Assembly (NCBI GenBank): GCA_903903985.1
Contig: CAIVAT010000178.1
Span: 1-64,000 of the forward strand
Direction of reading: 5' to 3'
Source of the DNA: an uncultured Bacteroidales bacterium
GTDB taxonomy: Bacteria > Bacteroidota > Bacteroidia > Bacteroidales > FEN-979
Length of the DNA: 64,000 nucleotides
Shown: positions 35,542 through 55,127 of the stretch, one piece after another
Position numbering within the stretch: the stretch's first letter is position 1
How the letters are laid out: each line of letters begins with the position of its first letter
The notes under the pieces: generated by a model
Seen by the model: the letters and a program-made list of their open reading frames with translations, nothing else
Told to the model about the DNA's origin: nothing
Databases searched by the model: none
Position numbers and translations under genes: made by a program

Positions 35542-36612
35542 TCATCGGAATTTAATCCGAAAAAAAAAGAGGAGGATGACCAGTACGGGTATCCACCAGT
35601 ATTGTTTCCGGAAGGAAATGTAAAAGATCATGAAAGTAATTACCGGTGCACTGAACAGCAGCAGGACCCAATCAGTTTTTATAAGGTTTGGGAGCAGGGC
35701 AATAAGTAAAAACCATTCGAAAGCAAAGTTCATTTCAGGGGTGCCGGCCAATTTTCTTTCTTTTTTTTCCCGTTGAATGTTGTTCAGGATGAAAAGGGTG
35801 ACAAAGGAAAGGATCAAAAAAAGAATGACAAGAATTCCCCATGCAGGCCAGGACGGCATGAAAATCCTGAACAGGTAGTCGATCGAAGTCATCCCGGGGA
35901 ACCCTTCACTGTGCATCCGGATTGATTTTATCCAGTCATGATAAAGACCTGCCCCCTTGAATGGTCCCGGGAAAATGAAGGGAAGAACCAGCCCAATACC
36001 AGCCGTTATGGCCATCCAGGCCATGGCTTTCCATTTCTTTCGCAGAACCATTGGAAACAACAGGATCAGCAGATAAGGTTTTGTGAGGATCACCATACCC
36101 AGCAGGATGCCGCCCTGCCAGTCTTTCCCTTTGAGAAAATCACCGATTGAAAGGCAACAAAGCAGCAGCAGGATAATATTGATGTTGCCAACATATAATT
36201 CCCGTGCAAAATGGATCAGAATACATCCAAACGAGAGGGAGAGCAGCCAAACTTCATGCCTGATATTTTCCAGGCTAAAGTAGTGCATGATCAATCGGCT
36301 GATGAGGATCATGGTATACCAGTAAGCACACCCAAGGATGAAAAAGTGAATTACGGCCGCTGTTCTGAAACTGAAAATAGTGTATGGAAGAAAAAAATAG
36401 AGGGATGCCGGACTGTATTTGTAAAAACCGCTGCCACTATAAAAGGAAACAAGGTAGACGGGCCCACCGGTCACAAGATTGACTGCCGCCGAATAATAAA
36501 CCCGGAAGTCACCAAGCTGGAACCGGCCATTGTATATGTTCAGTGTAAATGTTAAGATACATGCGATGGCCACGAAAATTGTGAACCCATTGAAAAGGTT
36601 CTTTTTATTCAT
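35542..36612 (-). CDS. Membrane glycosyltransferase-like protein (DUF2029/GT87 type)
   Basis: A 356-residue protein with about nine to ten hydrophobic segments. The loop after the first helix, GRFQLGDFRVYYSAAVNLVT followed by SPASLYFFLP, resembles GT87 (DUF2029) mannosyltransferases, which use polyprenyl-phosphate sugars. Its start overlaps the stop of the C45-like hydrolase gene by 4 bases, so it ends the transporter/hydrolase/GT operon. Why a glycosyltransferase sits in a putative peptide-uptake operon is unclear. Some of the assignment rests on topology alone. Confidence 0.7.
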   Translation of the reverse strand: MNKKNLFNGFTIFVAIACILTFTLNIYNGRFQLGDFRVYYSAAVNLVTGGPVYLVSFYSGSGFYKYSPASLYFFLPYTIFSFRTAAVIHFFILGCAYWYTMILISRLIMHYFSLENIRHEVWLLSLSFGCILIHFARELYVGNINIILLLLCCLSIGDFLKGKDWQGGILLGMVILTKPYLLILLFPMVLRKKWKAMAWMAITAGIGLVLPFIFPGPFKGAGLYHDWIKSIRMHSEGFPGMTSIDYLFRIFMPSWPAWGILVILFLILSFVTLFILNNIQREKKERKLAGTPEMNFAFEWFLLIALLPNLIKTDWVLLLFSAPVITFMIFYISFRKQYWWIPVLVILLFFFRIKFR

Positions 36613-37829
36613 GGTCCGAACAAATGAAGATAAGCCTCAACAATTTTATTGTCCAGCGTTTTGTAGAAATCCTTAATCTCGCTGACATCAGGAGGTGATT
36701 TCCGCCAGTCTTCCAGCCTTGCTTCAGCATCAGCAAATATTTGATTCTCCACAAGGGATAGTTTCTGCAGGAATCCAGTTCCGCTGGTGTTATACAATAC
36801 AGGAAGGTTGAGATAATCCTCTCCATGTCCGCGTTTGATGGGAAAACAAAGTTCCTTTAATTTTAATGCCTTGCTACACAGGGGCGCGTTGCCACTTTTA
36901 TCTGCCGTCAGCAACCCTGGCAACACATGTTCCGCATTAAACCAGACAGGGTATACCACTGAACATAACGGGAAGCCAAGGACCGTCCACATGGTCATGT
37001 TTAAAGGGTTTTCATTTTTCATTATTCCCCGGATAACCACAGAAGCGGATGAGGAAAACCGCGGAATGAAATCGGTAAACCAAACAAATTTATCCTTTTC
37101 CGTGGTGGGTAACTGTTTAAGGTTGGTTTCTGTAAGGGAGTGGTACAGGCACCTGGCCGCATCCCGGAGGATAAACTCGGGGGTAAGATTGTTTGTTGCG
37201 GAAGCCTGGTAAAATAATTTCTCTGCGGTCATATAGCGGATATACCCCTGCCCCTCATCGGGCTTGCCGGTAAAGGAGTAGTTGGTCCTGATGAGATAGC
37301 CCATGGGCGCTGCAACGGGATCATTCACATCGATTTTGAAATAACCGTTGTTTGAAGTTTCAAAATAAGCCCCGTTTCCCATTGCGTCAATTACCCCGAA
37401 ATTGGCTTCAAGTCCGTGTGGTTTTGGCAGCTTCTTTAAAAGGTTTTCGAAATCATCCACGGTTGCACATTGTTTTAACGCCTGCCGCATCACCCTCCCT
37501 TCATTTTCGGCAGCAGTGGTATCATCGCTGTTGTTGAGGTTGTAAGAAGCAGAGTTCATGATGGCAAAACCGGCTGTATTCATGCCAATCCATACTTCCG
37601 ATCCTGTTGTGTCTTTTGAGTTGACCAGGCCGATTGTGTTATATTTTCCATCAGTAAAGTACATCACTTTGTTATCAAGGTCGCCGGTATCACGGTTCTT
37701 CCAGAGCAAGGGCCGGCCATCCGGGGTAAATTTACCCGAGATAATGGCCGTGGTGCAGGCAAGTGTTGGTTGAATTACAGCAATAAGTAGTAAACTACTA
37801 AAAAACAGTCGTTTTCTCATGGTTAACAT
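36609..37829 (-). CDS. Exported Ntn-hydrolase of the C45/acyltransferase type
   Basis: A 406-residue exported amidohydrolase. The signal peptide ends at LA, leaving Cys25 (LACTTAIIS) as the likely N-terminal nucleophile, and the following FTPDGRPLLWKNRDTGD matches the C45 peptidase/choloylglycine-type Ntn-hydrolases, which cleave linear amide bonds (penicillins, acyl-amino acids, bile salt amides). A second ATG at 37820 would also keep the signal. Preceded by the YfcC-like transporter gene with a 13-bp gap and overlapping the GT87-like gene. A role in releasing N-acyl amino acids or peptides for uptake is inferred from this context. Confidence 0.75.
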   Translation of the reverse strand: MLTMRKRLFFSSLLLIAVIQPTLACTTAIISGKFTPDGRPLLWKNRDTGDLDNKVMYFTDGKYNTIGLVNSKDTTGSEVWIGMNTAGFAIMNSASYNLNNSDDTTAAENEGRVMRQALKQCATVDDFENLLKKLPKPHGLEANFGVIDAMGNGAYFETSNNGYFKIDVNDPVAAPMGYLIRTNYSFTGKPDEGQGYIRYMTAEKLFYQASATNNLTPEFILRDAARCLYHSLTETNLKQLPTTEKDKFVWFTDFIPRFSSSASVVIRGIMKNENPLNMTMWTVLGFPLCSVVYPVWFNAEHVLPGLLTADKSGNAPLCSKALKLKELCFPIKRGHGEDYLNLPVLYNTSGTGFLQKLSLVENQIFADAEARLEDWRKSPPDVSEIKDFYKTLDNKIVEAYLHLFGP

Positions 37830-37842
37830 GTTTCGGTGCCTA

Positions 37843-39234
37843 TTAATGATATATAAAAAGCAGAACAGGCGGGATCAACAGAAGGCAGCCAAGGATCAGG
37901 AAAATAACAGACAACGGGATCATGAACCTCACCCATTTATCATAGGGAATGTTAGCAATGGCCAAAACTCCCATGGTAACACCGCTGGTAGGGAATATGT
38001 TGGTAAATAGCCCATCCCCAAGCTGGAAAGCCAACACTGCTGTCTGGCGCGTTATTCCGATCAGATCAGCGAGGGGGGCCATGAGGGGCATCGTCAGTGC
38101 TGCCTGTCCGGAACCTGAAGGAACAAAGAAGTTCATAAAGCCCTGGAATACAAACATCATTTGAACCGATACCACCTTGGGAAAATGGCCCATGGTTCCG
38201 GCTATCCCGGCAAGAATGGTATCAATGATCTTCCCGTCGGTGGCTATAATCAGCATTCCGCGCGTAAGCCCGATGACGAAAGCAGCAGTCATCATGTCAC
38301 GGGCGCCCTCCAGAAAAGCTCCGATGGCTATATTGGAGTTAAGCCGGTAAACCAGTGCTGTGAGCAGCGCCATGGCTAAAAACAATCCTGCAATTTCGTT
38401 AATATACCAGTCCCAAACATTCACCCCAACAATGAGCATGATGATGGACACGAAAAAGATAACCAGTACTATTTTTCTTTTAAGGGTCAGGGCAAGATCT
38501 TCAGCAGAATGGTATGCAGTAAGATCCCTTTTGCGGTCAATCTCATAAACAAGGCTGCGCTCGGGGTTCTTTTCGATCCTTCTGGCATAAAACATGACGA
38601 ACAGAATGGCGGCAGTCATGAGCACAAGCCAAATGACAATCCGGTATTCCCAACCGCTGAATATCGGGATCTCAGAGATCCCCTGGGCGATACCGATGGT
38701 GAACGGATTGCTGAAGGCGCCTGCAAAACCTGATGCAGCCCCGATAAACGGCATGGCAACCCCGGTAAGCGAATCGTACCCCATGGCGATGGCAAGCGGG
38801 ATGGTAATCAGAATAAAAACCATCACTTCCTCTGCCATGCCGAATGAAGCGCCTGCCAGGGAGAACAGGAACATGATAATGGGAATGATGAATCTCTTGA
38901 TTGCCGGATTCTTGCGGGTAGTTGCAAGGACCCCTGCCAACCCGGCATTGATTGCCCCTGTTTTGGTGACAATCCCAAAAGCGCCGCCAATAAGCAAAAC
39001 AAGAGCGATGATCTGGGATGCCGACATCATGCCCTTGATGGGTGCTGTAAACAACTCCATTAATCCCTGTGGTTTCGGGGCCACATGGTGGTATGTTCCC
39101 GGAACTACGACCTGGCGGCCATTGAACAAGTTACGATCAAACTCCCCTGCCGGGATAAGCCAGGTAAGAATAATAAAGGTGATCAGGATGAAGGAGACAA
39201 TAATCAGGGTATGCGGCATCTTTTTCTTTTCCAT
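37843..39234 (-). CDS. YfcC-family inner-membrane transporter
   Basis: A 463-residue integral membrane protein with about 12 hydrophobic segments. Conserved features of the YfcC/DcuC-like family are SLAGASFGMAEEVMVFI, GAASGFAGAFSNPFTIGIAQ, and NFFVPSGSGQAALTMPLMAP near the C-terminal half. E. coli YfcC is annotated as a putative basic amino acid transporter, and related members carry C4-dicarboxylates. Either would fit import of arginine or aspartate. First gene of the operon with the C45-like hydrolase and GT87-like protein. Confidence 0.82.
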   Translation of the reverse strand: MEKKKMPHTLIIVSFILITFIILTWLIPAGEFDRNLFNGRQVVVPGTYHHVAPKPQGLMELFTAPIKGMMSASQIIALVLLIGGAFGIVTKTGAINAGLAGVLATTRKNPAIKRFIIPIIMFLFSLAGASFGMAEEVMVFILITIPLAIAMGYDSLTGVAMPFIGAASGFAGAFSNPFTIGIAQGISEIPIFSGWEYRIVIWLVLMTAAILFVMFYARRIEKNPERSLVYEIDRKRDLTAYHSAEDLALTLKRKIVLVIFFVSIIMLIVGVNVWDWYINEIAGLFLAMALLTALVYRLNSNIAIGAFLEGARDMMTAAFVIGLTRGMLIIATDGKIIDTILAGIAGTMGHFPKVVSVQMMFVFQGFMNFFVPSGSGQAALTMPLMAPLADLIGITRQTAVLAFQLGDGLFTNIFPTSGVTMGVLAIANIPYDKWVRFMIPLSVIFLILGCLLLIPPVLLFIYH

Positions 39235-39311
39235 GACCTGCTTGCTATAAGTGTGGAGTGAGAATGTGCAAATTTATCTTTTTTTTTTATTCTGCCATTT
39301 TTTACCATTAC

Positions 39312-39344
39312 TTTCATAATTTACATCTTTATTATGTAAGTTTG
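39312..39344 (+). promoter_or_regulatory. Probable Bacteroidota promoter for the T9SS secreted protein
   Basis: TTTC (39312-39315), a 21-bp spacer, and TAAGTTTG (39337-39344) match the Bacteroidota consensus with one mismatch in the -33 box. The -7 element lies 35 bases before the ATG. Confidence 0.65.
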
Positions 39345-39378
39345 CATAACATAAGTCAAACCCCAAAACTTCAATCCT

Positions 39379-40476
39379 ATGAAAAAAACTTTACTTTTTC
39401 TTGCGGTAATGCTGCTCATCTTTGCAGATGGCTACTCCCAGGCAACTTTTACAACTGGTGCTTTGGAGGTAGGTGTAAGCCAATATGGCAGAATCCGGCT
39501 TTTTACCCCCGATGGTACGAGGCATCTGCAACGCGCTTCGATCCTGGTGGGAACCAGACCAACGAGCGTATTTGACTACAATGCTGATGCGGAGGCTCTT
39601 GAACCAGCAGCATTGGTGACGAATCCCGCATTAAGTGATTTTGAAATCTATGGTTCAATTGACAACTCTTATTCATCATTACCCCCGGCTGTGATTGTAA
39701 AATTGAATGCCTACGGGTGGAACAATGGCAGTTACACCATCGTTAAATTCAAGGTAATCAATAATGAATCGGATAACATTGATGCAATAATCGGCCTTGA
39801 CATTATACCGGAGTTAAACCAGACTTATGGATTCGACACCGTTACGTACAATAATGCCCAGGGAGTGATACGGTTTCACAGAGGCGGTCAGGTGAATATG
39901 GGCATGAAACTGCTTTCAACATCACTGTCATCCCTCTATTCTTTCGAATGGTACGATGGTTATAATGCAGATACCAGTTATTGGAATTGGATGAATTATG
40001 GATCGTTGCAACCTCAATATGTTTCAACTACGCTTGACGGACCGGTTACCATTACGGCACAGAACTTTGTTAACCTGGCCCCGGCGCACTCTGTGGATGT
40101 ATATTATGCCCTTGCGTTAGGAGCTGATGAGCAAACCATGTTATCCAACATCGCTGCAGCGGTAGTCAAGTACCAGGCATTGATCACCTCTGTTAATAAT
40201 CATCCTTCTGCCACTGAATTCAACCTCGGGCAAAATACACCCAATCCATTTAGAAATTCCACTACGATCAGTTACCAGTTGCCTGAAAATGGTCAGGTAA
40301 GTTTAAAGGTTTATAATGTTGTGGGAAATGAAGTGGCGACTTTGGTAGATTCAAAGCAAAGAAGCGGTATACACACTGTTGATTTCAATGCAAAAAATTT
40401 ACCCGGCGGCGTATATTATTATACACTCAGGTGTAATGACCAGGTAAAATCAAATAAAATGTTACTGATCAAATAA
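39379..40476 (+). CDS. Secreted protein with type A T9SS C-terminal sorting domain
   Basis: A 365-residue protein with a signal peptide (MKKTLLFLAVMLLIFADGYS), about 270 residues of beta-rich sequence of unrecognised function (for example FDYNADAEALEPAALV and DIIPELNQTYGFDTVTY), and a C-terminal T9SS signal (LGQNTPNPFRNSTTISYQLP, VYNVVGNEVATLVD, GGVYYYTL). Expected to be secreted and often attached to the cell surface. Lies next to the SusCD operon in convergent orientation, with the 40496-40542 inverted repeat between them. Confidence 0.85.
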   Translation: MKKTLLFLAVMLLIFADGYSQATFTTGALEVGVSQYGRIRLFTPDGTRHLQRASILVGTRPTSVFDYNADAEALEPAALVTNPALSDFEIYGSIDNSYSSLPPAVIVKLNAYGWNNGSYTIVKFKVINNESDNIDAIIGLDIIPELNQTYGFDTVTYNNAQGVIRFHRGGQVNMGMKLLSTSLSSLYSFEWYDGYNADTSYWNWMNYGSLQPQYVSTTLDGPVTITAQNFVNLAPAHSVDVYYALALGADEQTMLSNIAAAVVKYQALITSVNNHPSATEFNLGQNTPNPFRNSTTISYQLPENGQVSLKVYNVVGNEVATLVDSKQRSGIHTVDFNAKNLPGGVYYYTLRCNDQVKSNKMLLIK

Positions 40477-40490
40477 AAGGGAAAGATCGC

Positions 40491-40562
40491 GACGTGTGAC
40501 GCGTGACAAGTGACAAGTGATGAGTCATTTGTCACGCGTCACGCGTTTCGCGTTTCCTGTCA
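40491..40562. repeat. GTCACGC heptamer cluster with a 14-bp perfect inverted repeat
   Basis: GTGACGCGTGACAA (40496-40509) and TTGTCACGCGTCAC (40529-40542) form a perfect 14-bp stem around a 19-nt loop that itself has GTGACAA units. It lies between convergent genes and may end transcription of both. The GTCACGC heptamer is also found inside the DnaE2-like gene at 55613-55638. Confidence 0.7.
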
Positions 40563-41783
40563 CAGTTTAATCCATGCCACGGTCATGGCATGCGGGCTTA
40601 CGCCGGTCAGCCAATCCTCTTGAGCCGACCCGTCGAGATTGGCCCTGATTATTTTACCATCCGGAGCTGAGTTGGAATTTTTAACTCCCCAGAAGAGTTT
40701 ATTACGTGTTTGGTCTAAGGTGATGCCCCAGGTGGCCTTTGTTCCATATTCACCGATTTTTGTGAGGCTGGTGCCATTGAGATTACACATGTAAACTCCA
40801 TTTTCGGGGGCAACAGTCCCTGTTGAACCATAAAGGACCAGGTAGGCTTTCCCGTTCCTGAAATCCATCTCCAGGGCTGTCCCGTCAACATCGGGGGTGC
40901 CCGGAACATCGAAAGTAATTTGAGTGAAATTCGTGCCATCAAAATTCACAGACCAGAAACCGCCCAGGTAGTCGGTTTTATCATTGACAAGATAAATCTT
41001 ATTGGACACTGGATCGTATTGCATGTCGATCGGGTATTGAGGTTCAGATGCTCCACCATTCATTGCGATGAATACTTCGGGATTGGTGCCATCCAGGTTG
41101 GCACGATAGATGCCCCCGGTGCGGCCCCAATAAATTTTATCCCCGTATACGAAGATGGCCTCCGCATCACCGACGAGTTCCTGCCCCGGAACACTGGCAT
41201 CCAGGATTTTCTGGGGCAAGGAACCATCTGCATTAAACCGGTAAATTGCCTGATTCGAATAATCGGTGATATAAATTTTCTGGTGGGCGGTATCAACGGC
41301 TATCCCATAGGGCCTTGACATGTCGGCTTCGACGAAATCCTGGCTGAGCGGCGGGGCATCATTCAGGATGACCATATGTCCATTCCCAATTGTTCCCCTG
41401 GTGGTATAGTAAAAGACCTGTGACAATCCTGCAAGCGGATCCTTGATATTCACCACCAGGGATTTAGACTCCTGACTATAATAGACAGAATTTACCGGGG
41501 TACATGTAAGTTTGACGCTGTACAATCCGGGTGTTTCAAATGTGGCCGTCGGGTTGATTTCTGTTGACGTCTGGCCATTTCCGAAATCCCACAGATAACC
41601 CGTAGCATTTAAGGATAAATTGGTGAATACGACTTCACAAGGCGCATATCCACCGTTTTTGACAACATAACTGAAATTGGCCTGAGTACTTGCAGCGGGG
41701 GTCCCCATGTCCTTCTCTTTGCATCCTGTTCCTAAAGTCAGGATGAAGAGGAACGTGATAAGATATAAAAGATTTCTTTTCAT
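40560..41783 (-). CDS. Surface lipoprotein with PKD domain and YWTD-like beta-propeller
   Basis: A 407-residue lipoprotein (lipobox LGTGC, Cys21). A PKD domain is at about 33-115 (GYLWDFGNGQTSTEINP), followed by five to six LDLR/YWTD-like propeller blades (KIYITDYSNQAIYRFNADG, KIYWGRTGGIYRANLDG, KLFWGVKNSNSAPDGKIIRA). It follows susD after 31 bases on the same strand, the position where SusE/F-like surface binding proteins are found. It probably binds the same ligand as SusD, but no ligand specificity can be read from the sequence. Confidence 0.85.
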   Translation of the reverse strand: MKRNLLYLITFLFILTLGTGCKEKDMGTPAASTQANFSYVVKNGGYAPCEVVFTNLSLNATGYLWDFGNGQTSTEINPTATFETPGLYSVKLTCTPVNSVYYSQESKSLVVNIKDPLAGLSQVFYYTTRGTIGNGHMVILNDAPPLSQDFVEADMSRPYGIAVDTAHQKIYITDYSNQAIYRFNADGSLPQKILDASVPGQELVGDAEAIFVYGDKIYWGRTGGIYRANLDGTNPEVFIAMNGGASEPQYPIDMQYDPVSNKIYLVNDKTDYLGGFWSVNFDGTNFTQITFDVPGTPDVDGTALEMDFRNGKAYLVLYGSTGTVAPENGVYMCNLNGTSLTKIGEYGTKATWGITLDQTRNKLFWGVKNSNSAPDGKIIRANLDGSAQEDWLTGVSPHAMTVAWIKL

Positions 41784-41814
41784 AATTTTCTACTTTAAAA
41801 AGGTTGAAAAATGA

Positions 41815-43149
41815 TCAATAGCCAGGGTTTTGCTTCATTAGTGTATTTGTTTGCAGTTCGCTGAGCGGTATCGGAAAAAGGGTGTATTTCTGATCGATTC
41901 CAAGCACGGTTGTTGCTCTTTTTGTCCTGACAAGGTCAGACCACCTCTGGCTTTCAAAAGCAAACTCATGCCTGCGTTCGTTTTCAATGGCAAGTTGCAA
42001 CTCAGCATACGTGGTAGCTGTTGTGGGAGCAAGACCTGACCGCAATCTCAGGGTATTGATATCATTTCGGATATCATCTATGTTTCCGCTGGTATATGCC
42101 AACGCCTCGGCGCGAATCATGTACATTTCAGCCAGGCGCAGCACATATACCCGGTCGGTACCCGAGGTAACGTCGGTATACTTGATTCCGTATGGCAGAT
42201 TCTTTGCATCAAATGTAATGGAAGCGTTAAACCTGACTGTGTCGGTGGCTTGGAAACTCTGGACGAATACTGCCGGTGGTGAAACTTCATACCGGCCAGT
42301 GAGGCTGACAGGAAAGAAATATTGGGCCAGACGGTTATAATTCTGGGCATCAAAAATCACTTCGAAAATGGATTCGGTCGTATTCCCGTTGAAAAGGTCG
42401 GCATAGGCCGGGGCCAGGATATATCCGCCATTATTGATCACCTCATCCGCCCTGGCTTTGGCCTGGGCTGCGATGGACGCATCGCCGGTAAATTGGAATT
42501 GCGACAGATAGACCCTTGCCAGTAACGCAGTGGCACTGTAGGAGCTGGCCCATCCCAGTGGCCTGGAGGCAGGCAGGATTTTTTCAGCCTCCACTAAATC
42601 AGCGATAACCTGTTTATATACATCCGCCACAGTGTTACGAGCCTGGTTTATGCTGGACAAGTCGAGGGTAGGCCTGGTTTTGATAGGGATACCACCGAAG
42701 TAACCGAGGAGGTTGAAATGGGATAAAGCACGGAGAAAAAGTGCATCCCCGGTATACATGTTCCGTTTGTCAGTACTCATTTCAATGCCGCCAATACGTT
42801 CGAGCACATTGTTGACCCTGTTGATGCAATCGTAATTGGAAGTCCAGATTCCGTCAATGATGCCATTGTCGGAAGCAATCAGGTTGTCGTCAATTTGGAG
42901 ATAGTCACGGGTCGTTCCGGTCCATGCGAGATTATCGGCCGCAAGATCCTCAACGATGACATGGTTGCGTCCGTAATTGCCGACGTCATGCAGGGAATAA
43001 TAAGCCCCTGTGATGGCTTTGTTTATACCGGTTTCATCCTTGATAGCCTGATCCGTCGAAATGGAAGCAGTCGGTTGAACATCCAGCATCTTGGTGCAGG
43101 ACATGGCTGTAAGGGCCAGGATAATGAATATATATGATATTTTTTTCAT
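41815..43149 (-). CDS. SusD/RagB-family nutrient-binding lipoprotein
   Basis: A 444-residue outer-membrane lipoprotein (lipobox AMSC, Cys18), with the N-terminal KMLDVQPTASISTDQAI, TPR-like LFLRALSHFNLLGYFGGIPI and the C-terminal NERRHEFAFESQRWSDLVRT typical of SusD. It caps the SusC channel and delivers substrate. Gene order susC-susD with 18 bases between them supports a functional pair. Neighbouring cyanophycinases suggest a peptide or polymer ligand. Confidence 0.95.
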   Translation of the reverse strand: MKKISYIFIILALTAMSCTKMLDVQPTASISTDQAIKDETGINKAITGAYYSLHDVGNYGRNHVIVEDLAADNLAWTGTTRDYLQIDDNLIASDNGIIDGIWTSNYDCINRVNNVLERIGGIEMSTDKRNMYTGDALFLRALSHFNLLGYFGGIPIKTRPTLDLSSINQARNTVADVYKQVIADLVEAEKILPASRPLGWASSYSATALLARVYLSQFQFTGDASIAAQAKARADEVINNGGYILAPAYADLFNGNTTESIFEVIFDAQNYNRLAQYFFPVSLTGRYEVSPPAVFVQSFQATDTVRFNASITFDAKNLPYGIKYTDVTSGTDRVYVLRLAEMYMIRAEALAYTSGNIDDIRNDINTLRLRSGLAPTTATTYAELQLAIENERRHEFAFESQRWSDLVRTKRATTVLGIDQKYTLFPIPLSELQTNTLMKQNPGY

Positions 43150-43167
43150 CTTTTTCAGAATTAAATG

Positions 43168-46077: not shown

Positions 46078-46102
46078 ATGCTTGGTGTTTGGTTAGGGTT
46101 CG

Positions 46103-47377: not shown

Positions 47378-47448
47378 TTTGCTTTAATTAAGTTTCCACA
47401 GCCCCTCCCTCTCCTGAGTGAGACGGGGAGGAGATGAGGTTTTGGAAT

Positions 47449-49416
47449 TTATTGTTTAACAAATTTAACAGCGGTCACAGGGTTTTGTTGTTTGTTATTT
47501 ACCATTATAATATAGACCCCTGATGTAAATGCTGAAACATCAATTTGTTCCGTTTCATTGCTGGAATCGCCCTGCATCATCAGGTTACCTGGCAAGTCAT
47601 AGATTTTCCACTCATGTCTTTTGGAATCCCATTTCAATGACAGTTTATTATGAACCGGGTTAGGCGATAATACCAAAGGTTTCGTGCTTTTATCGTCCCG
47701 GATTCCGGTAGAATGAACAGTTCCCATGATATAGGGGGTGGTGTAATCAATCAGGGCGAGTTTCAGATGTTCAAATCCTGCAATCATCCGGGGCAATGTG
47801 CTGGTGCTACCTGATGCGGTATGGGTTGAAAACCCTGCAACGCTTCCGGCATTGGCAATTACCATAACAGGAGCGGAGCCATAGCCTGTAAGTGTTGTTT
47901 TCCCAGCCACGGGAGTGAATTTCATATAATTGTGGTTGGTAAGCCAGATGCCGTATTTCAGGGAGTCTCTGGCCATAGCATATGGAACAGCCGTTATCGT
48001 GTTTTCGTAAATATAATCGTTCAGGAACGTATTGGGCATAATTACCGTATGACTGAGCAAAGACAGCCCTTTCGTGAAAGTGAGTTCGGCGTAGTAAGAA
48101 GCATATTCGGTTAAATAATTATCAACAACCGTTTTACCTGCAAACCGGGAATCGTCACCTGCAAAGGCTGTGATCATACTGTCGCTTGTTATTTTTTTCA
48201 GAAGCAAATCTCCATTGATGGTTCCAAGAAATGAAGATAGTGCAGGGAAACTGTTTTTCAGGAACAGGATCTTCGTCACAGTATTGATTCGGTTGCCAAG
48301 TTCAGCATCGGTCCCCGATTGTAGGTTCGGGGTGTAGAGGTACACCTGGGCGGCCCCCAACTCGAGCAACCTGGTTTTAAATGTGGCTGCCAGAGACTGA
48401 TCTCCGGATAATATGACGATATCTGCCGCTTTTTCCCCGGTACTGTTCACCAGGTCGTTCAACATGGCCTGATTATCAAAAAGCACATTACTGCCGCTGG
48501 CCAGAATGGTATAATTACCTGATTCTTCAAGCCCTGCGGTATTCATTTCACGATCAAGGCCCGCGAATCCTATCTGTCCGGTCGAGAAATTGTAAGTGCT
48601 TCCCTGCAGCAGCTGAAAAACATGAACAGGGTCGGCGAGCAGTTTGTTACCATTGAGTGCGTAGGTGCTTCCGGCTGGATATATGTTTGCACATCCGGTT
48701 CCGTAAACTGTCCCGAGTCCGTTCTCATCCACTGTCATGCAGGTCATGTCATCCATTCCCAAACCATTGATGGACAATCCCTGGTTCAGGCTGAGGTTGG
48801 CCAGGAACCCGACAAGCCTCCCAAACCGGCCGCGCTCGGCAAAGTGGGTGTCAAAAAGAAAACCCGGAACGAGGTTCATGAAATCACTTGCAAGAGTAAC
48901 AAATTGATTGTTGGGGTTCTCGATGCATTCATACGGGTAAACCGTTCCGTTTTCTGCAGTGAACACCACGGATGACAATATATGCATTCCTGCCGAAGTA
49001 CCGCCTATCGTGCCACCTTGCGTGTACACATGGTTAACTGCATCCTGAAGTTTCGTATTGCGGTACAAGCTATAATAATCATACTGGTCGCCACCCCTGA
49101 AAAAGATCACATCGTAACTGGTCAGGGTATCATACGTTGCCTGGCTGTTTGCACTGTCGCGACTGGCAATGGCGAACTCTTTGGCCCTGGTGGCATGGCA
49201 TTGCTGCATGAAATAGGGGGCGAGGCTCCCTGTGGAGTACCCAACAATGGCGACTTTTTTGCCTGCGCCGGCCCAACTGTAAGCCGGGGTGCTCCAGCTT
49301 GAGATGCCGTTTTTTTCGGCGCCACCTCCCACCAAAAGCAACCTCCCGGTTTGTGAGGAAGCGTAATTGAATACTAAGATGAAGGTGATAAACAAAAAAC
49401 CTTTTAAATACGTCAT
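47449..49416 (-). CDS. T9SS-secreted cyanophycinase-like protein with a degenerate second S51 domain
   Basis: About 655 residues from the ATG at 49416, with signal MTYLKGFLFITFILVFNYAS. Domain 1 (about 24-280) is S51-like with RLLLVGGGAE, FFRGGDQ, nucleophile loop GTSAGM (S141), and DTHFAERGRFGRL (H191). Domain 2 (about 325-570) mirrors its layout (ADIVILSGDQSLAATFKTRL, ILFLKNSFPALSSFL) but has AGDDSR where the nucleophile loop should be, and NTF in place of the DTHF motif. The end has a T9SS signal (LSPNPVHNKLSLKWDS, GVYIIMV). It heads the operon with the other S51 enzyme, SusC and SusD. Confidence 0.85.
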   Translation of the reverse strand: MTYLKGFLFITFILVFNYASSQTGRLLLVGGGAEKNGISSWSTPAYSWAGAGKKVAIVGYSTGSLAPYFMQQCHATRAKEFAIASRDSANSQATYDTLTSYDVIFFRGGDQYDYYSLYRNTKLQDAVNHVYTQGGTIGGTSAGMHILSSVVFTAENGTVYPYECIENPNNQFVTLASDFMNLVPGFLFDTHFAERGRFGRLVGFLANLSLNQGLSINGLGMDDMTCMTVDENGLGTVYGTGCANIYPAGSTYALNGNKLLADPVHVFQLLQGSTYNFSTGQIGFAGLDREMNTAGLEESGNYTILASGSNVLFDNQAMLNDLVNSTGEKAADIVILSGDQSLAATFKTRLLELGAAQVYLYTPNLQSGTDAELGNRINTVTKILFLKNSFPALSSFLGTINGDLLLKKITSDSMITAFAGDDSRFAGKTVVDNYLTEYASYYAELTFTKGLSLLSHTVIMPNTFLNDYIYENTITAVPYAMARDSLKYGIWLTNHNYMKFTPVAGKTTLTGYGSAPVMVIANAGSVAGFSTHTASGSTSTLPRMIAGFEHLKLALIDYTTPYIMGTVHSTGIRDDKSTKPLVLSPNPVHNKLSLKWDSKRHEWKIYDLPGNLMMQGDSSNETEQIDVSAFTSGVYIIMVNNKQQNPVTAVKFVKQ

Positions 49417-49554
49417 TTTTGAGTAAAGATAGTCAACAGTGTATCTTGGTTTGTAGAGGTGCATTAATTATATAGCGAAAATATAAAATAAGGGAGCACA
49501 AAAAATGATTGTAATGATTTTTTTTACCAAATTTGCTCAATAAAACCTGAAAAG

Positions 49555-50685
49555 ATGTTAACACTGTTTAAAAATGCGCAGATATATGCTCCGCAAAATA
49601 TTGGAATAAAAGACATACTGACCGGTGGAAAAAGCATTCTTGCAATTGCAGACTGCATTGACCCTCCTGCCGGAATTGAGGTGGAAACGATTGACTGTAC
49701 CGGGCTGCGGCTTATGCCCGGGTTGATTGATTCTCATGTTCATATTACAGGCGGTGGGGGTGAAGGCGGCCCGGCCAGCCGGATGCCCGAGCTTCAACTT
49801 GCAATGATGCTGGAAGCCGGGGTAACCACAGTAATCGGGTGCCTCGGAACCGATGGCATTACCCGGACTGTGGAAAGTGTGCTGATGAAAGTAAAAACTT
49901 TGCGGGCACAGGGCGTTTCAGCATGGATGTATACTGGTTCTTACCAGGTTCCTACTCCATCCATCACCGGTGATATTTCGAAAGATATTGCCCTTTTTGA
50001 AGAAATTATCGGTGTTGGGGAGGTCGCTATTTCTGACCATCGTTCTTCTTTACCTTCCATTGCTGAGCTTGCCCGGATTACTGCCCAGGCGCGGGTGGCA
50101 GGCATGATTGGAGGGAAAGCCGGTATTGTTAACATGCACATGGGAGATGCACTGGATCCATTCCGTCCGATACATGAAGTTGTGGCATGCACCGAAATGG
50201 GTTACAAGCAATTTGTGCCTACCCATTGCAACAGGAACAGTTACATTTTTGAAGATGCCAAGGAATATGGAAAGAATGGCTACCTTGACATCACCACCAG
50301 CTCCTATCCCTATTATGTTGATGAAGAGATCAAGCCATCCATTGCATTGAAGGAGCTTCTTGCCTGTGGTGTTCCGCTGGAAAATATCACATTTACTTCC
50401 GACGGATGTGGCTCCTTGCCGGGTTTCGATCCGGTGACCGGGAAACTGATAAAGATGGAGATGGGCCTTCCGTCTTCCATCCTGCGGGAACTGAAAGAGG
50501 CCGTTTTGGTGGATGGAATTCCTCTGGAACAGGTTTTGCAGGTTGTCACCTCAAACCCGGCCAATATTCTGAAACTGACTGGAAAAGGGTACATCAGGGA
50601 AGGGCATGACGCTGATATTTTAATACTTGATCCGGAATTCAATATTGTTCATCTGATGGCCATGGGAAAGATCATGAACCGGTGA
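49555..50685 (+). CDS. iadA: Isoaspartyl (beta-aspartyl) dipeptidase
   Basis: Amidohydrolase that splits beta-Asp dipeptides, including beta-Asp-Arg from cyanophycin. At 376 residues it has the metal ligands H61 and H63 (DSHVHITG), H195 (VNMHMGD), H224 (PTHCNRN) and D283 (TSDGCGS), plus TGSYQVP. The position of the carboxylated lysine of E. coli IadA is E156 (GVGEVAISDHRS), so the bridging ligand may differ. No signal peptide, so cytoplasmic. Divergent from the cyanophycinase-SusCD operon and just ahead of the M28 peptidase gene. Confidence 0.92.
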   Translation: MLTLFKNAQIYAPQNIGIKDILTGGKSILAIADCIDPPAGIEVETIDCTGLRLMPGLIDSHVHITGGGGEGGPASRMPELQLAMMLEAGVTTVIGCLGTDGITRTVESVLMKVKTLRAQGVSAWMYTGSYQVPTPSITGDISKDIALFEEIIGVGEVAISDHRSSLPSIAELARITAQARVAGMIGGKAGIVNMHMGDALDPFRPIHEVVACTEMGYKQFVPTHCNRNSYIFEDAKEYGKNGYLDITTSSYPYYVDEEIKPSIALKELLACGVPLENITFTSDGCGSLPGFDPVTGKLIKMEMGLPSSILRELKEAVLVDGIPLEQVLQVVTSNPANILKLTGKGYIREGHDADILILDPEFNIVHLMAMGKIMNR

Positions 50686-50713
50686 CCTCGGAATATAAAG
50701 GCGAATTAAAATC

Positions 50714-50740
50714 AATGATTTACAATTTACGATTTATGAT
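50714..50740. repeat. ACGATTT heptamer repeat at the M28 peptidase start
   Basis: ATGATTTACAATTTACGATT then TATGATT, three to four degenerate heptamers between the iadA stop and the likely start of the M28 peptidase. Confidence 0.5.
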
Positions 50741-52334
50741 TAAAATTATAAACAGACCTTGCATCCTGGTATTGCTGCTGTCTTTATACACGTTGGTGCT
50801 GCATGCACAAACAACCTCCCGTCCTGTTCCACCTCCTTTGAAAAATGATTTCAAAGGCATCCTGGAATTCCTCTCTTCCGATTGGATGGAGGGACGTGAA
50901 GCCGGGACCCGAGGTGGATCCATGGCGGCAGCGTACATCGCCTCCATGATGCAACTGAATGGATTGCTGCCTTATGGTGATCCGGATAACAACCATGAAC
51001 CAGGTTCCCCTCTTCACCATCAAAGATCCTATTTTCAAAATTTTCAAATGATCCGGTGCAGTGTTGAAAAATCTTACCTTGCTGTAATCCATCATGCTGC
51101 GGAAGGGGAATCTGCCATTGTGTTAGACCCCGGCATCGACTATCAGGTCGACGCGGTTCCTTTCGGCAGGGAAGCCGAGGCGCAGATTGTTTTTCTTGGT
51201 TATGGAATTGAAGCACCCGCAAAAGGTTATGATGATTACATGGGAATGTCAGTCAACAACCGGATTGTTGTTGTTTTGGACGGATATCCGGGTCAAACTG
51301 ATACTACTTCCGCTGCATGGAAAAAATTGGGAAAATCCTTTGAAGATGAATATGCAACGTTAAAAAAGAAACTTCGCTACGCTGAACAAAATGGTGCAGT
51401 GGCAATGGTTATTCTGGACCCGGCAGTGCTGAACAATACTGTTAACACTGCCTTGCCGGAAGACCCTGATGATGATCACTTCAGGCACTTTTTACCAGGA
51501 GATACCGGAAACGTAAAGATCCCCTGCTTCCGGCTTGGAGCCGATGCTGCCCGGCTACTTTTCAAAGATGCCGGGATCGACCTGCACGGCTTTGAAAAAA
51601 AGGCAGCCCGCGATCTGTCGCCTGCCTCCCGGTTGGTTCAGGAGAAAAAAATCAGGTTCTCAATTGCCGTTAAATCAGAATCATTGACCATCTGTAATGT
51701 GCTGGGAATGATCCAGGGAGACGATACGACCCGGAATATCATTGTCGGGGGTCATTATGACCACCTGGGTATCAGGAAAGGATTGATTTACAACGGGGCC
51801 GATGACAATGCTTCGGGAACCTCCGGGATGCTGGCCCTGGCCAAATGCTGGGCCGGTTACCCTCAGAAACCTCCCTGCAACATTATTTTTGCTGCCTGGA
51901 TGGGAGAGGAAAAAGGGAAACTTGGAAGCAATTTTTTTGCCCGGCATTCATCGATTGTTCCCAACCGGTTGTCGCTTGTCATAAACCTCGATATGATTTC
52001 CCGGAGCGATCCTGGGGATTCTGCTGCAAGACAGCTCAGCATCGGGACAATGACCGGAAATACGGATTTGAGAAACCTTGCAAAAAAGTGCAATTCCAAT
52101 TTGGAGTGTCCATTTGTACTCGACCTATGGGATGTGACTGGGGCAACGGGGAGTGATTACAGGCCCTTTGCCGACCGGAAAGTTCCTATTCTTACCTTCC
52201 ATGCCGGATTTCCGGAAGAATACCACACTCCACAGGATGATTTTTCCAGGGTTAATTTAACAAAGATGGAGCGGATTCTGAAGTTAGCCAATGAATGTCT
52301 TCGTGAATCGTTGGAAAATCAGCCAACAAGATAA
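50736..52334 (+). CDS. Exported M28 zinc aminopeptidase-like protein
   Basis: About 532 residues from the ATG at 50736, which gives the signal MIKIINRPCILVLLLSLYTL. A GTG at 50682 overlapping iadA would encode residues from a heptamer repeat and hide the signal. PA-like inserted region (about 100-270), then the M28 catalytic part: GGHYDHLGI (H340, D342), NGADDNASGT, WMGEEKG, NLDMIS and FPEEYHTPQDD. Cocatalytic zinc ligands are present. Acts outside the cytoplasm, probably trimming N-terminal residues of peptides for uptake. Downstream of iadA in the same direction. Confidence 0.9.
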   Translation: MIKIINRPCILVLLLSLYTLVLHAQTTSRPVPPPLKNDFKGILEFLSSDWMEGREAGTRGGSMAAAYIASMMQLNGLLPYGDPDNNHEPGSPLHHQRSYFQNFQMIRCSVEKSYLAVIHHAAEGESAIVLDPGIDYQVDAVPFGREAEAQIVFLGYGIEAPAKGYDDYMGMSVNNRIVVVLDGYPGQTDTTSAAWKKLGKSFEDEYATLKKKLRYAEQNGAVAMVILDPAVLNNTVNTALPEDPDDDHFRHFLPGDTGNVKIPCFRLGADAARLLFKDAGIDLHGFEKKAARDLSPASRLVQEKKIRFSIAVKSESLTICNVLGMIQGDDTTRNIIVGGHYDHLGIRKGLIYNGADDNASGTSGMLALAKCWAGYPQKPPCNIIFAAWMGEEKGKLGSNFFARHSSIVPNRLSLVINLDMISRSDPGDSAARQLSIGTMTGNTDLRNLAKKCNSNLECPFVLDLWDVTGATGSDYRPFADRKVPILTFHAGFPEEYHTPQDDFSRVNLTKMERILKLANECLRESLENQPTR

Positions 52335-52339
52335 TTTTG

Positions 52340-53449
52340 TCAGATCTTCTGTGCGACGCTTCTTACAGTTACCTTGTCAAGTTCCCGCATGTTCACTTCT
52401 ACCCCGATCCCGGGTTTGACAGGCACATCCATGGTCCCGTCCGGATTTACAACAAATTCCGGTATTACAATATCCGTCTTGTAATATCTTTTACTCGCTG
52501 AAATGTCTCCGGGCAAGGTAAAATTGGGAAGTGAAGCCAGCGCAACATTCCCGGCGCGGCCAATCCCTGATTCAAGCATCCCGCCGCACCAGACCGGAAT
52601 GTTCATGGAGGCACAATAGTTGTGAATAAGTTTTGATTCGGTAAACCCGCCGACACGCCCTGGCTTTATATTGATGATGCGGCAACTGTCCAGTTCAATG
52701 GCAGCCCTGGTATCATCAAGTGAATGGATGCTTTCATCGAGGCAGATGGGCGTTTTCAGTTCACGCTGGAGTTTTGAATGGTCGTATATATCTTCATAAC
52801 CGAGTGGCTGTTCTATCAATGAAAGATTATAATTGTCCATCTTTTTAAAGATGTCGATGTCATTCAATGTATAGGCAGAGTTTGCATCAACCTGTAACAG
52901 CATGCCAGGAAATTCCCTCCGGAGTGCTTCAACAAACTGCAGGTCAAGTCCCGGGGCGATCTTGATCTTGATCCGCTTATACCCCTCCGCCAGATATCCC
53001 TCAACCTTTGTTATGAGTCCTGCCATTGAATCCTGGATTCCGATGCTCACACCAACATCTATCTTTTTACGGGTGCCGCCAATCATCTGCGAGAGGGAGA
53101 TGCCCCTGGTTTTTGCAAAAGCATCCCACAGCGCTGCCTCCAGCCCGGCTTTGGCCATCATGTGACCACGAACCTTGGCATAGCTCGCAATCGCTTCATC
53201 TACACTTGCAATATCTTTTCCAAGGATAGAAGGAATCAGAAAATCCTTCAGGATATGCCAGGCAGTCGGAACGGTCTCATAAGAGTAAAAAGGGGTGCCT
53301 TCTGCTACACTTTCACCCCATCCCGTTACTCCGTCAGCATCAACCCTGACAATGATATGTTCTTCATCATACTCAATCCCCATGGAGGTCACAAAGGGGC
53401 TTACCAGGACTAATTTCACATGGCGAAGTTCAATTCTTTCGATTTTCAT
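52340..53449 (-). CDS. N-succinylamino-acid racemase / o-succinylbenzoate synthase-family enzyme
   Basis: Enolase-superfamily protein of 369 residues: K161-I-K163 (YKRIKIKI), metal ligands D188 (QVDAN), E213 (IEQPL) and D238 (ICLDES), and K262 (NIKPGRVGG). Overall sequence resembles the NSAR/OSBS group (menC-type), with WCGGMLESGIGRA and PNFTLPGDISAS. Because no menaquinone genes are near and peptidases surround it, an N-acylamino-acid racemase or dipeptide epimerase is the likelier role. The assignment to racemase rather than OSBS is inference. Confidence 0.85.
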   Translation of the reverse strand: MKIERIELRHVKLVLVSPFVTSMGIEYDEEHIIVRVDADGVTGWGESVAEGTPFYSYETVPTAWHILKDFLIPSILGKDIASVDEAIASYAKVRGHMMAKAGLEAALWDAFAKTRGISLSQMIGGTRKKIDVGVSIGIQDSMAGLITKVEGYLAEGYKRIKIKIAPGLDLQFVEALRREFPGMLLQVDANSAYTLNDIDIFKKMDNYNLSLIEQPLGYEDIYDHSKLQRELKTPICLDESIHSLDDTRAAIELDSCRIINIKPGRVGGFTESKLIHNYCASMNIPVWCGGMLESGIGRAGNVALASLPNFTLPGDISASKRYYKTDIVIPEFVVNPDGTMDVPVKPGIGVEVNMRELDKVTVRSVAQKI

Positions 53450-53494
53450 AGCGTTTGATTTTAAAATAGAAACCGTAATAAAGGTGGATTATGT

Positions 53495-55018
53495 TTATTT
53501 TTTAACTACCCGTAGTACAGGGAATGATCCCCAACTCGTTAGTAAACCAGCATATTTTGCATAGGTTGCCAACCCCAGCATCGACTTTGGTTCCAATGCC
53601 AGGACAATCATGTTGCCTTTAAGCTGAGCAGTGGAAAGGAAATAACAATCATGCTCTTTGATGGTGATCGGAAATTCCCGGGTGGCAACATCCGGGTTTG
53701 CTACAATGTCGCCTTCAAAATCAATGGAGTCAATGCGGTTGATCATGTATTGTTCAATTTTATATTCCCCTGTGTTTATGAATGGTGTACATTTCAGGGA
53801 TTGTCTGCCCGCCCATTCCAGGAGGGGTTGCCAATCCACCGGAATCAGATATCCAACCGGTTTTTTAACATCACACAAAGATTTTACCACCGGGCGGTAA
53901 TCATTCACGGTAATCACAGAATCGTTGCCTGAGTAATAGGAGAGAAGCGGGATTTTCAGTTTCTTCCCATTCCTGACATGTTCCGACTGAACCGATATAT
54001 TTTCGCCGGATGCGCCAGCAGTTGTTTTTTCCCTTTCGGCAAAAACCAGGTTTTTAATTTTGTCTTTATGAATGTAAACATACTCCAGCAATCCGCGCAT
54101 CCCGGTCATCTGGGCTTCAGCCCGGTGCTGAAGGTTTTCATTCAGGTCATCTGTCCCGTTTCTGCCTTCCTGGATGAAGGAGAAGGTGTTCTGAATGCCA
54201 AGGCTCTGCCGGCCGTCGTTGATGTCGAAAGTACTGTGCCGGATATAATCGATCTCTGGTGGTCCGCCAGGACAATATTCGAAAGAAGAGAACTTGTGTT
54301 CGCCCAGGTATTTAAAAATGAAAGGAAGATAATCTTCCGCAGATATTTTCCTGATCTCGGGCGAGACATTCAGATTGGTTGTGGTACCCATGGTGATGTC
54401 CGAGTTTTTCCGGTACCCGTATTTTTTCCATTCTTCACCGTACGGTGAATACTCATGCACATCCATGCTGACCTCAAAAAGATATTTGTCAAAGAGGGCA
54501 TGCAATGCAATTGTTTCGGGTTCGGTAAGGATCAAATGATTGCGATTCAGATCCATATCGTTTGCATTGCGCCGTTTATTTGCCTCCGAACCATCGGGAT
54601 TCACCTGGGGGATGAGGACAAAATCAATTTTATCAAAAAGATACCTGTTTCCTGGTTTTAGCAATTCTTCTGCGAGCAGCAATGCGCCTTCCTTTCCCGA
54701 TTGCTCATTGCCATGCTGTTGCGCAAAGATGAGCACTTTTATTTTTGATGGATCCTTCCCGAATTCTGTCGAAGAAAATTTAAGTGCATAAAGATTTCTC
54801 CATTCAACGGAATGTCCGATTTTTTCAACTTGCAGTAAATCCGATTTCGAGTCAAGTTGTTGGATGTATTTGGTTAATTCATCATAGGAAGTAACCGTTT
54901 TGTAGTTGTTCTTAACGAGCGGGGGTACCGTTTCCTGCGAAAGAACAAACAGCGGGAGGACAAGAAGGATCAGGAAAGACCATACAGTGTTCATTCCGGA
55001 AAATTTCACCTTTCTCAT
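53495..55018 (-). CDS. Exported M14 metallocarboxypeptidase-like protein
   Basis: About 507 residues from the ATG at 55018, with signal segment NTVWSFLILLVLPLFVLSQ. The M14 zinc motif is QQHGNEQSGKEGA (H102, E105), with a third ligand in SMDVHEYSPYG, substrate-binding NPDGSEANKRRNANDMDLNR, and a probable catalytic Glu in FIQEGRNG. The C-terminal half (about 330-507) is an extra domain of beta type. Codirectional with the racemase gene. Cleavage of C-terminal residues from peptides in the periplasm or outside is likely. The adjacent dnaE2 operator is on its upstream side. Confidence 0.88.
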   Translation of the reverse strand: MRKVKFSGMNTVWSFLILLVLPLFVLSQETVPPLVKNNYKTVTSYDELTKYIQQLDSKSDLLQVEKIGHSVEWRNLYALKFSSTEFGKDPSKIKVLIFAQQHGNEQSGKEGALLLAEELLKPGNRYLFDKIDFVLIPQVNPDGSEANKRRNANDMDLNRNHLILTEPETIALHALFDKYLFEVSMDVHEYSPYGEEWKKYGYRKNSDITMGTTTNLNVSPEIRKISAEDYLPFIFKYLGEHKFSSFEYCPGGPPEIDYIRHSTFDINDGRQSLGIQNTFSFIQEGRNGTDDLNENLQHRAEAQMTGMRGLLEYVYIHKDKIKNLVFAEREKTTAGASGENISVQSEHVRNGKKLKIPLLSYYSGNDSVITVNDYRPVVKSLCDVKKPVGYLIPVDWQPLLEWAGRQSLKCTPFINTGEYKIEQYMINRIDSIDFEGDIVANPDVATREFPITIKEHDCYFLSTAQLKGNMIVLALEPKSMLGLATYAKYAGLLTSWGSFPVLRVVKK

Positions 55019-55127
55019 AAAGTCTCGATTGAATACGATACAAATGTAAAGGATTCTCCAGAACAAAAATAATTAGTAAATTTTCGTATTAAAGATAAAT
55101 ATATTTTTTTTCAGTTTTCACGACAAA

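Follow-up and report, generated by a model that had tools for sequence, protein, structure and literature searches.

The 64,000-nucleotide stretch analyzed here (the window) comes from an uncultured Bacteroidales bacterium (assembly of 5.2 Mb in 195 contigs, 87% complete; contig C178) and harbors a gene cluster built around a SusC/SusD pair that is very probably a locus for scavenging cyanophycin, in other words a cyanophycin utilisation locus. Cyanophycin serves as a nitrogen store in cyanobacterial biomass. We base this assignment on the equivalog scores of the S51-family protein S51B and of the isoaspartyl dipeptidase IadA, the pocket residues shared with the cyanophycinase CphB, the predicted fold of a second S51 protein, S51A, the lack of a cyanophycin synthetase (CphA1) over the cut-off, and a conserved gene neighborhood. 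The original prediction of a SusCD-based locus for uptake and degradation of cyanophycin or isoaspartyl peptides is supported by the family scores, by the catalytic and pocket residues, and by the conservation of S51 genes with SusCD and, in part of the loci, IadA.

The gene cluster and its S51 enzymes

S51A, S51B, SusC, SusD and a PKD/propeller lipoprotein lie on one strand, separated by 71, 25, 18 and 31 bp in the list of open reading frames (ORFs). Because these same-strand gaps are short, a single operon from S51A to the propeller lipoprotein, as originally predicted for these genes including the type IX secretion system (T9SS) tail on one S51 protein, is plausible. IadA is divergent from S51A across a gap of 90 bp and overlaps the gene for an M28 metallopeptidase by 4 bp. 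An enolase-superfamily enzyme of the N-succinylamino acid racemase/o-succinylbenzoate synthase (NSAR/OSBS) family, here called NSAR, and an M14 zinc carboxypeptidase-like protein stand on the far side, and a small secreted protein with a T9SS tail and a YfcC/DcuC-family carrier on the near side. Judged by relatives that lack it, the locus proper spans about 37843-55066 (Table 1). Adjacent susC and susD accompanied by degradative enzymes, as judged by Pfam domains, the short gap between the pair and conservation, are what characterizes a SusCD-type utilisation locus, and the clustering of cyanophycinase, iadA and transporter genes in the window is the gene content of a cyanophycin utilisation locus. 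The whole genome contains six SusD-family matches, and we estimate the chance of finding SusD in a random 22 kb stretch at about 2.5%. As SusD is rare in the genome and the same arrangement recurs in relatives, the arrangement appears to be more than a coincidence.

S51B scores 174.4 bits against the TIGR02069 cyanophycinase model (cut-off 126.6) and thus belongs to this family by score. Its best matches in the PDB are 7UQV and 3EN0. In the alignment with these two, S51B keeps the GTSAG nucleophile motif, the DQHF...R.R..RL block and the acidic residue, and Q137, S172, D226, Q227, H228, R232, R234, R237 and E257 are invariant in nine rows including the window. A domain search found no T9SS tail on S51B, which is probably located in the periplasm, to judge from its sequence features.

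In S51A, Q127, S157, H207, R211, R213 and R216 are kept in 58/58 rows, and its sequence matches in the PDB are cyanophycinases. The predicted model (pLDDT 80.7) gave cyanophycinases as the top matches in the fold search: 7UQV, an entry with pseudo-CphB in its title, reached a TMt of 0.80 and the CphB entry 3EN0 one of 0.74-0.78, and PepE entries ranked behind; the model additionally matched a T9SS sorting domain. The Ser/His of Synechocystis CphB and the Gln and Arg of its pocket are retained in both S51 proteins.

S51A consists of an S51 catalytic domain (residues ~39-300) and a second domain (~315-585). The second domain shows an S51-like order of elements in the predicted model, and the column paired with the nucleophile is Asp in the window and Ser in 5/58 rows. 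The profiles of the two domains were collinear, but the comparison gave a probability of 2% (E 0.024). Our guess would be that the second domain is a degenerate S51 copy, possibly binding the polymer; as the profile comparison is weak, the main support for such a duplication is how the elements are ordered in the model. The S51 tree, in which 12/36 inner branches are open and two rows are very long, places S51A and S51B of the window in different groups. We rejected an assignment of the S51 proteins as PepE-type aspartyl dipeptidases; a separate PepE-like S51 gene is located on contig C116. Extra S51 proteins of ~440 aa, with cyanophycinase scores of 48-62 bits, were also found on other contigs of carrier genomes (G015:C68, G025:C11, G030:C22 and G035:C82).

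IadA reaches 438.8 bits against TIGR01975 (cut-off 331.25), which makes it a member of this family. Aligned to LmIadA (8DQN), it keeps H61, H63, H195 and H224 as well as the Glu at the bridging position, which replaces the carboxylated Lys. The enzyme is probably cytoplasmic.

Polysaccharide utilisation loci combine a surface enzyme, a SusCD pair, a surface lipoprotein, further enzymes inside and an inner-membrane carrier. The locus in the window has a similar layout, whereas its enzymes are peptidases instead of carbohydrate-active enzymes. Gene content and order, the kept catalytic residues, the recurring neighborhood, the co-inheritance and the lack of a cyanophycin synthetase over the cut-off are observed; we infer cyanophycin as the substrate, along with the cell locations, the transport steps and the roles of the YfcC-type carrier, M28, M14, NSAR and the small T9SS protein. 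S51A would leave the cell through the T9SS and cleave the polymer extracellularly. SusCD, with the propeller lipoprotein as a surface binder, would take up (beta-Asp-Arg)n oligomers or dipeptides through the outer membrane, and S51B would complete the cleavage to beta-Asp-Arg in the periplasm. Once the YfcC-type carrier had moved the dipeptide or Arg over the inner membrane, cytoplasmic IadA would cleave beta-Asp-Arg into Asp and Arg.

In addition to its match to Pfam DcuC, the carrier scores 387.4 bits against the NCBIfam YfcC model, under the cut-off of 500, and is a candidate importer of beta-Asp-Arg or Arg. YfcC also adjoins IadA and S51 genes in the Peribacillus loci L132, L133 and L138. 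Its tie to the locus is weaker than that of the other members, since a 40% homologue in L150 stands between dinB and dnaE without the locus. Thirteen loci of the same family encode a match to SusC at 80-90% identity, and L098 encodes two homologues of the PKD/propeller lipoprotein, which have PKD and Ldl_recept_b repeats.

Conservation and alternative explanations

For the comparison, an S51A alignment was used to scan an 84,980-species collection, which yielded 303 relatives, and the best 80 of the 303 were examined. A two-domain S51A score threshold of 450 bits was passed by 57 of the 80; a few are short or cut ORFs. The main count comprises the 38 loci flanked by 8 kb or more at both ends; the other 19/57 were excluded because one flank was shorter than 8 kb. 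Neighborhood matches under 60 bits or 120 aa were disregarded; two of the counted matches are weak (SusC, 79 bits, in L118; M14, 105 bits, in L091). Since the neighborhood profiles were derived from genes of the loci under study, scoring as SusC or SusD indicates the family and not orthology; the S51B profile additionally captured S51 proteins of 840-854 aa from Bacillus/Peribacillus.

Among the 38 well-flanked loci (all 57 loci in parentheses), we found SusC in 33 (42), SusD in 28 (36), S51B in 30 (38), the propeller lipoprotein in 29 (34), IadA in 20 (32), YfcC in 17 (22), M28 in 10 (15), the small T9SS protein in 10 (13), NSAR in 9 (10) and M14 in 9 (13). SusC and SusD occur jointly in 28 of the 38, and SusC, SusD and S51B in 26; all 20 loci with IadA also have SusCD. 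The predicted conservation of S51 genes next to susCD and iadA was thereby confirmed in other genomes. The same-strand order S51A-S51B-SusC-SusD is found in 19/57 loci, and the order S51A-SusC-SusD...S51B in 7/57. The latter are from named isolates of Chryseolinea (two), Fulvivirga, Marivirga (two), Marinigracilibium and Mangrovivirga, all of them Cytophagales and among them Chryseolinea serpens (L099) and Marivirga sericea (L111). A set of 20 stretches from relatives was also compared; L050 and L054 among them are cphA1 loci, and L045 contains only S51A. Within the same family the block is found again, be it at the dinB-dnaE site or in another place. Four further families of the order have the core of IadA and two S51 genes as well; two of these families also have both SusC and SusD, and the remaining two have one or the other. 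Across 61 genomes, 19 contain IadA and an S51 protein over the TIGR02069 cut-off, and the two genes lie within ~20 kb in 17/19, among them the cphA1-linked pair of G024; in the remaining two they are on different contigs. In line with the original statement that the window has no cyanophycin synthetase, none over the cut-off was found in the whole assembly (best score 98.6 versus 850 bits), and CphA1 exceeded the cut-off in only 2/61 genomes, G014 and G024, where it stands beside a separate S51 gene.

A cyanophycin utilisation locus of Bacteroidetes was described in 2017 (Ben Hania et al., Environ Microbiol 19:1134), so the locus of the window belongs to a kind already known. The 2017 abstract of Ben Hania and co-workers reportedly describes the transport complex as similar or homologous to polysaccharide utilisation loci. 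A further parallel comes from Citromicrobium, presumably not a member of the Bacteroidetes. There, as in the window, a TonB-dependent transporter lies beside a cyanophycinase, and cyanophycin uptake was predicted from gene context; unlike in the window, the accessible portion of that paper mentions no SusD (PMC3400609). PMC10206079 credits Ben Hania et al. (2017) with a Bacteroidetes locus of cyanophycinase genes, iadA and a transporter, and PMC6243061 describes two S51 proteins in Salinivirga, one with a Por secretion domain, and a gene context in its own strain that differs from the one in Salinivirga. In these features the locus of Salinivirga cyanobacteriivorans L21-Spi-D4 resembles ours. 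Among genomes without cphA1, cyanophycinase and IadA or IaaA were clustered in 45/52 (Sharon and Schmeing, 2023; PMC10206079, Table 4). Such clusters resemble the locus in having no CphA1 over the cut-off, S51 and IadA genes side by side and, frequently, amino-acid transporters nearby, and differ in that SusCD, NSAR and the small T9SS protein go unmentioned in the excerpts. The idea of a SusCD-based peptide-polymer counterpart of polysaccharide utilisation loci is supported, whereas its novelty falls with the 2017 locus cited in PMC10206079; in literature excerpts joining cyanophycin and SusD, no such locus is described. The conserved SusCD-based locus could serve as a marker for uncultured Bacteroidota able to harvest cyanophycin. 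Less expected are two additional enzymes, NSAR and M14, apparently linked to the same pathway.

Several observations weigh against the assignment as a cyanophycin locus. S51A scores 92.8 bits against TIGR02069, below the cut-off of 126.6, and is thus cyanophycinase-like without being a member by score. The position corresponding to Gln173 is Thr or Ser in the 58-row alignment, although in L050 and L054 the S51 proteins encoded beside cphA1 likewise have Thr there. Within the family, S51A is present in only 9/14 genomes with S51B, in one of these (G008) on another contig, which makes S51B the steadier member. No IadA was found in the stretch covered at the seven named-isolate loci, and by our models SusC or SusD is lacking in 10/38 loci, most of which are unexplained; L094 has a SusD-like_2 gene beside SusC, with which similar genes of L096 and L097 cluster. 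The absence of CphA1 from an assembly that is 87% complete is not final. Finally, IadA does not fix the substrate, because the IadA enzymes of cyanophycin clusters are themselves promiscuous (PMC10206079).

This promiscuity, together with the M28 and M14 peptidases in the locus and the existence of SusCD-type oligopeptide importers such as RagAB, would suit a more general scavenging of isoaspartyl peptides or aged proteins, in which S51, M28, M14 and IadA degrade Asp- or isoAsp-rich peptides imported by a RagAB-like SusCD. We consider this unlikely, as S51B exceeds the cyanophycinase cut-off, the pocket residues of CphB are present in S51A and S51B alike and the genome encodes its PepE-like S51 protein separately. 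Moreover, S51A, S51B and SusCD stay together without IadA, M14 or M28 nearby in L098-L100, L107, L111, L113 and L114. It is even harder to believe that SusCD serves an unrelated substrate and the peptidases are neighbors by chance. Unrelated genes do meet in the dinB-dnaE interval, the cargo of which varies between relatives and includes, e.g., genes for a C45 Ntn-hydrolase and a GT87 glycosyltransferase, but the two conserved gene orders and the way in which NSAR, M14 and S51B are present or absent together in the 37 family genomes speak against a chance neighborhood.

NSAR and M14 as co-inherited members

The enolase-superfamily racemase of the original prediction is present, yet it is not a mere flanking gene, being an NSAR/OSBS-family enzyme co-inherited with the locus. 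NSAR scores 364.6 bits against TIGR01928 (cut-off 200.65), aligns to 1SJA over nearly its full length with matching KxK and metal-ligand positions, and is the only MR_MLE_C match in its genome. K160, K162, D187, E212, D237 and K261 are invariant in seven rows, and we presume that these include the acting residues. A Lys/Lys acid-base pair is stated for the NSAR/OSBS family in PMC8142540.

An S51B like that of the window is encoded in 14/37 genomes of the family (G000-G036, within the 61 overall). NSAR (E 1e-60) is present in 14/14 of these S51B carriers and 0/23 of the other family genomes (Fisher p 1.6e-10, with no correction for phylogeny), and in 14/61 overall. M14 (E 1e-40) occurs in the same 14 genomes, and also in G049 and G056, which both have the core and encode it at 36-37% identity on other contigs. 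Presence and absence are both found in three genera, implying repeated gain or loss. The Ignavibacteria loci L116-L118 have M14 after S51A, and L118 has NSAR there too. The identities between L118 and the window are 81% for NSAR, 61% for M14, 60 and 40% for two small T9SS proteins, and 27% for S51A. From these high identities, set against the low one of S51A, an exchange between the phyla is probable for NSAR, M14 and the small T9SS protein, and improbable in the same event for S51A.

The best NCBIfam model of NSAR is menC_lowGC_arch, and several characterized members are named NSAR/OSBS for both activities, which could suggest a menaquinone-pathway o-succinylbenzoate synthase placed beside the locus by chance. 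No MenD over the cut-off was found in the genome (best 28.2 versus 244.2 bits), and a menD gene could be missing from an incomplete assembly. Given the lack of MenD, a role in menaquinone synthesis is unlikely, and with the 14/14 versus 0/23 distribution and the reappearance of NSAR after S51A and M14 in Ignavibacteria at such high identity, we regard this explanation as very improbable and rejected it.

A link of NSAR to the cyanophycin locus raises another role. Since beta-Asp-Arg is N-(3-aminosuccinyl)-arginine, an N-acylated arginine whose carboxylate is free and which is close to the N-succinyl-amino acids racemised by this family, and given the tie to the locus and the lack of MenD, NSAR may act on beta-Asp-Arg; it would turn a D-Arg or otherwise epimerised dipeptide into the L form ahead of IadA, or do the reverse. 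NSAR in cyanophycin loci did not turn up in the literature, in which no search was aimed at that pairing.

The motifs HGNE and DLNRN and a His further along are conserved in at least 12/13 rows of the M14 alignment. M14 lies near S51A in stretches without IadA (L104 and L116-L118), which makes it a candidate hydrolase of the dipeptide. PMC10206079 points to an M14/AstE-type family of cyanophycin dipeptide hydrolases in other bacteria and calls the isoaspartyl dipeptidase of Bacteroidota undiscovered; the exported M14 is a candidate for this enzyme. None of its 15 PDB matches (E 0.01) was named a cyanophycin dipeptide hydrolase, with it not being established whether the PDB set includes one. 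Gene association and chemistry together suggest, as a speculative and rather doubtful joint proposal, that NSAR is a beta-Asp-Arg epimerase and the exported M14 a beta-Asp-Arg hydrolase of Bacteroidota and Ignavibacteria. The two co-inherited enzymes thus offer two testable functions, one of which may name the beta-Asp-Arg splitter in Bacteroidota that have no known isoaspartyl dipeptidase, a question raised in PMC10206079.

Boundaries and further observations

Farther out, the locus is bordered by dinB and the gene of a LexA-type repressor at one end and by that of a dnaE-type polymerase at the other. In relatives without the locus, the stretch from dinB to dnaE is either short or filled with other genes, which are GT87, an Alg9-type mannosyltransferase, a T9SS-tail protein and C45 (L145), C45 and GT87 (L146), or GT87, an Alg9-type gene and the YfcC homologue mentioned above (L150). 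In L148, C45 and GT87 are beside dnaE, and the contig ends before any dinB. A Na/H exchanger occupies the interval in L155, and in G010 dinB and dnaE are 6 bp apart (L157), the locus being on another contig. As the cargo differs between relatives (L145-L157), the dinB-dnaE interval looks and behaves like an insertion hotspot in an apparent SOS cassette. C45 and GT87 were rejected as members of the locus and count as other cargo, because they are found by dnaE in relatives lacking it; among the 100 loci L042-L141, the count of C45 matches was zero. The divergent IadA, M28, M14, the enolase-superfamily enzyme and the YfcC-type carrier were rightly predicted beside the operon, while the exported Ntn-hydrolase does not belong with them.

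Table 1. Features of the locus and of its surroundings in the window. Signal peptides and lipoboxes were assigned by eye.
Feature	Position	Strand	Evidence and assignment
S51A	47449-49464	-	PF03575 and PF18962 (Pfam); putative secreted cyanophycinase-like serine peptidase with T9SS tail, signal peptide
S51B	46103-47377	-	TIGR02069 over cut-off; putative exported cyanophycinase, signal peptide
SusC	43168-46077	-	Plug and carboxypeptidase-regulatory-like domains; predicted TonB-dependent outer-membrane transporter
SusD	41815-43149	-	SusD-like_3 and SusD_RagB; predicted surface lipoprotein, lipobox
PKD/propeller lipoprotein	40560-41783	-	PKD_4; lipobox; candidate surface binding protein
Small secreted protein with T9SS tail	39379-40476	+	PF18962; signal peptide
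YfcC/DcuC-family inner-membrane carrier	37843-39234	-	DcuC, 374 bits
IadA isoaspartyl dipeptidase	49555-50685	+	TIGR01975; no signal peptide
M28 metallopeptidase	50682-52334	+	PF04389; signal peptide; accessory
NSAR/OSBS-family enolase-superfamily enzyme	52340-53449	-	TIGR01928; no signal peptide
M14 zinc carboxypeptidase-like	53495-55066, or from ATG at 55018	-	PF00246; signal peptide
C45/AAT Ntn-hydrolase	36609-37829		Outside locus; Pfam 32.4 bits over 23.2, NCBIfam 52.3 under 85 (weak)
GT87 glycosyltransferase	35542-36612		Outside locus
dinB and dnaE-type polymerase	34217-35386 and 55189-58266		Bounding the interval

The small T9SS protein travels with the locus, with two copies in L118. 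Its AlphaFold2 model (pLDDT 75.8) is a beta-sandwich, for which Foldseek gave partial matches in the PDB to sandwich domains of sugar enzymes, with a TM score to the query of ~0.5 as the best among the matches listed. In the three Ignavibacteria loci, a gene for 912-924 aa and one for ~330 aa precede S51A (L116:1787-5567, L117:259-4028 and L118:6212-9959); in L118, the former is without a Pfam match and the latter is PorV-like. In Bacillus/Peribacillus (L131-L133 and L138), an S51 protein of ~341 aa is encoded beside one of 840-854 aa, preceded by YfcC and IadA in all but L131, and the arrangement looks like a Gram-positive version of the locus.

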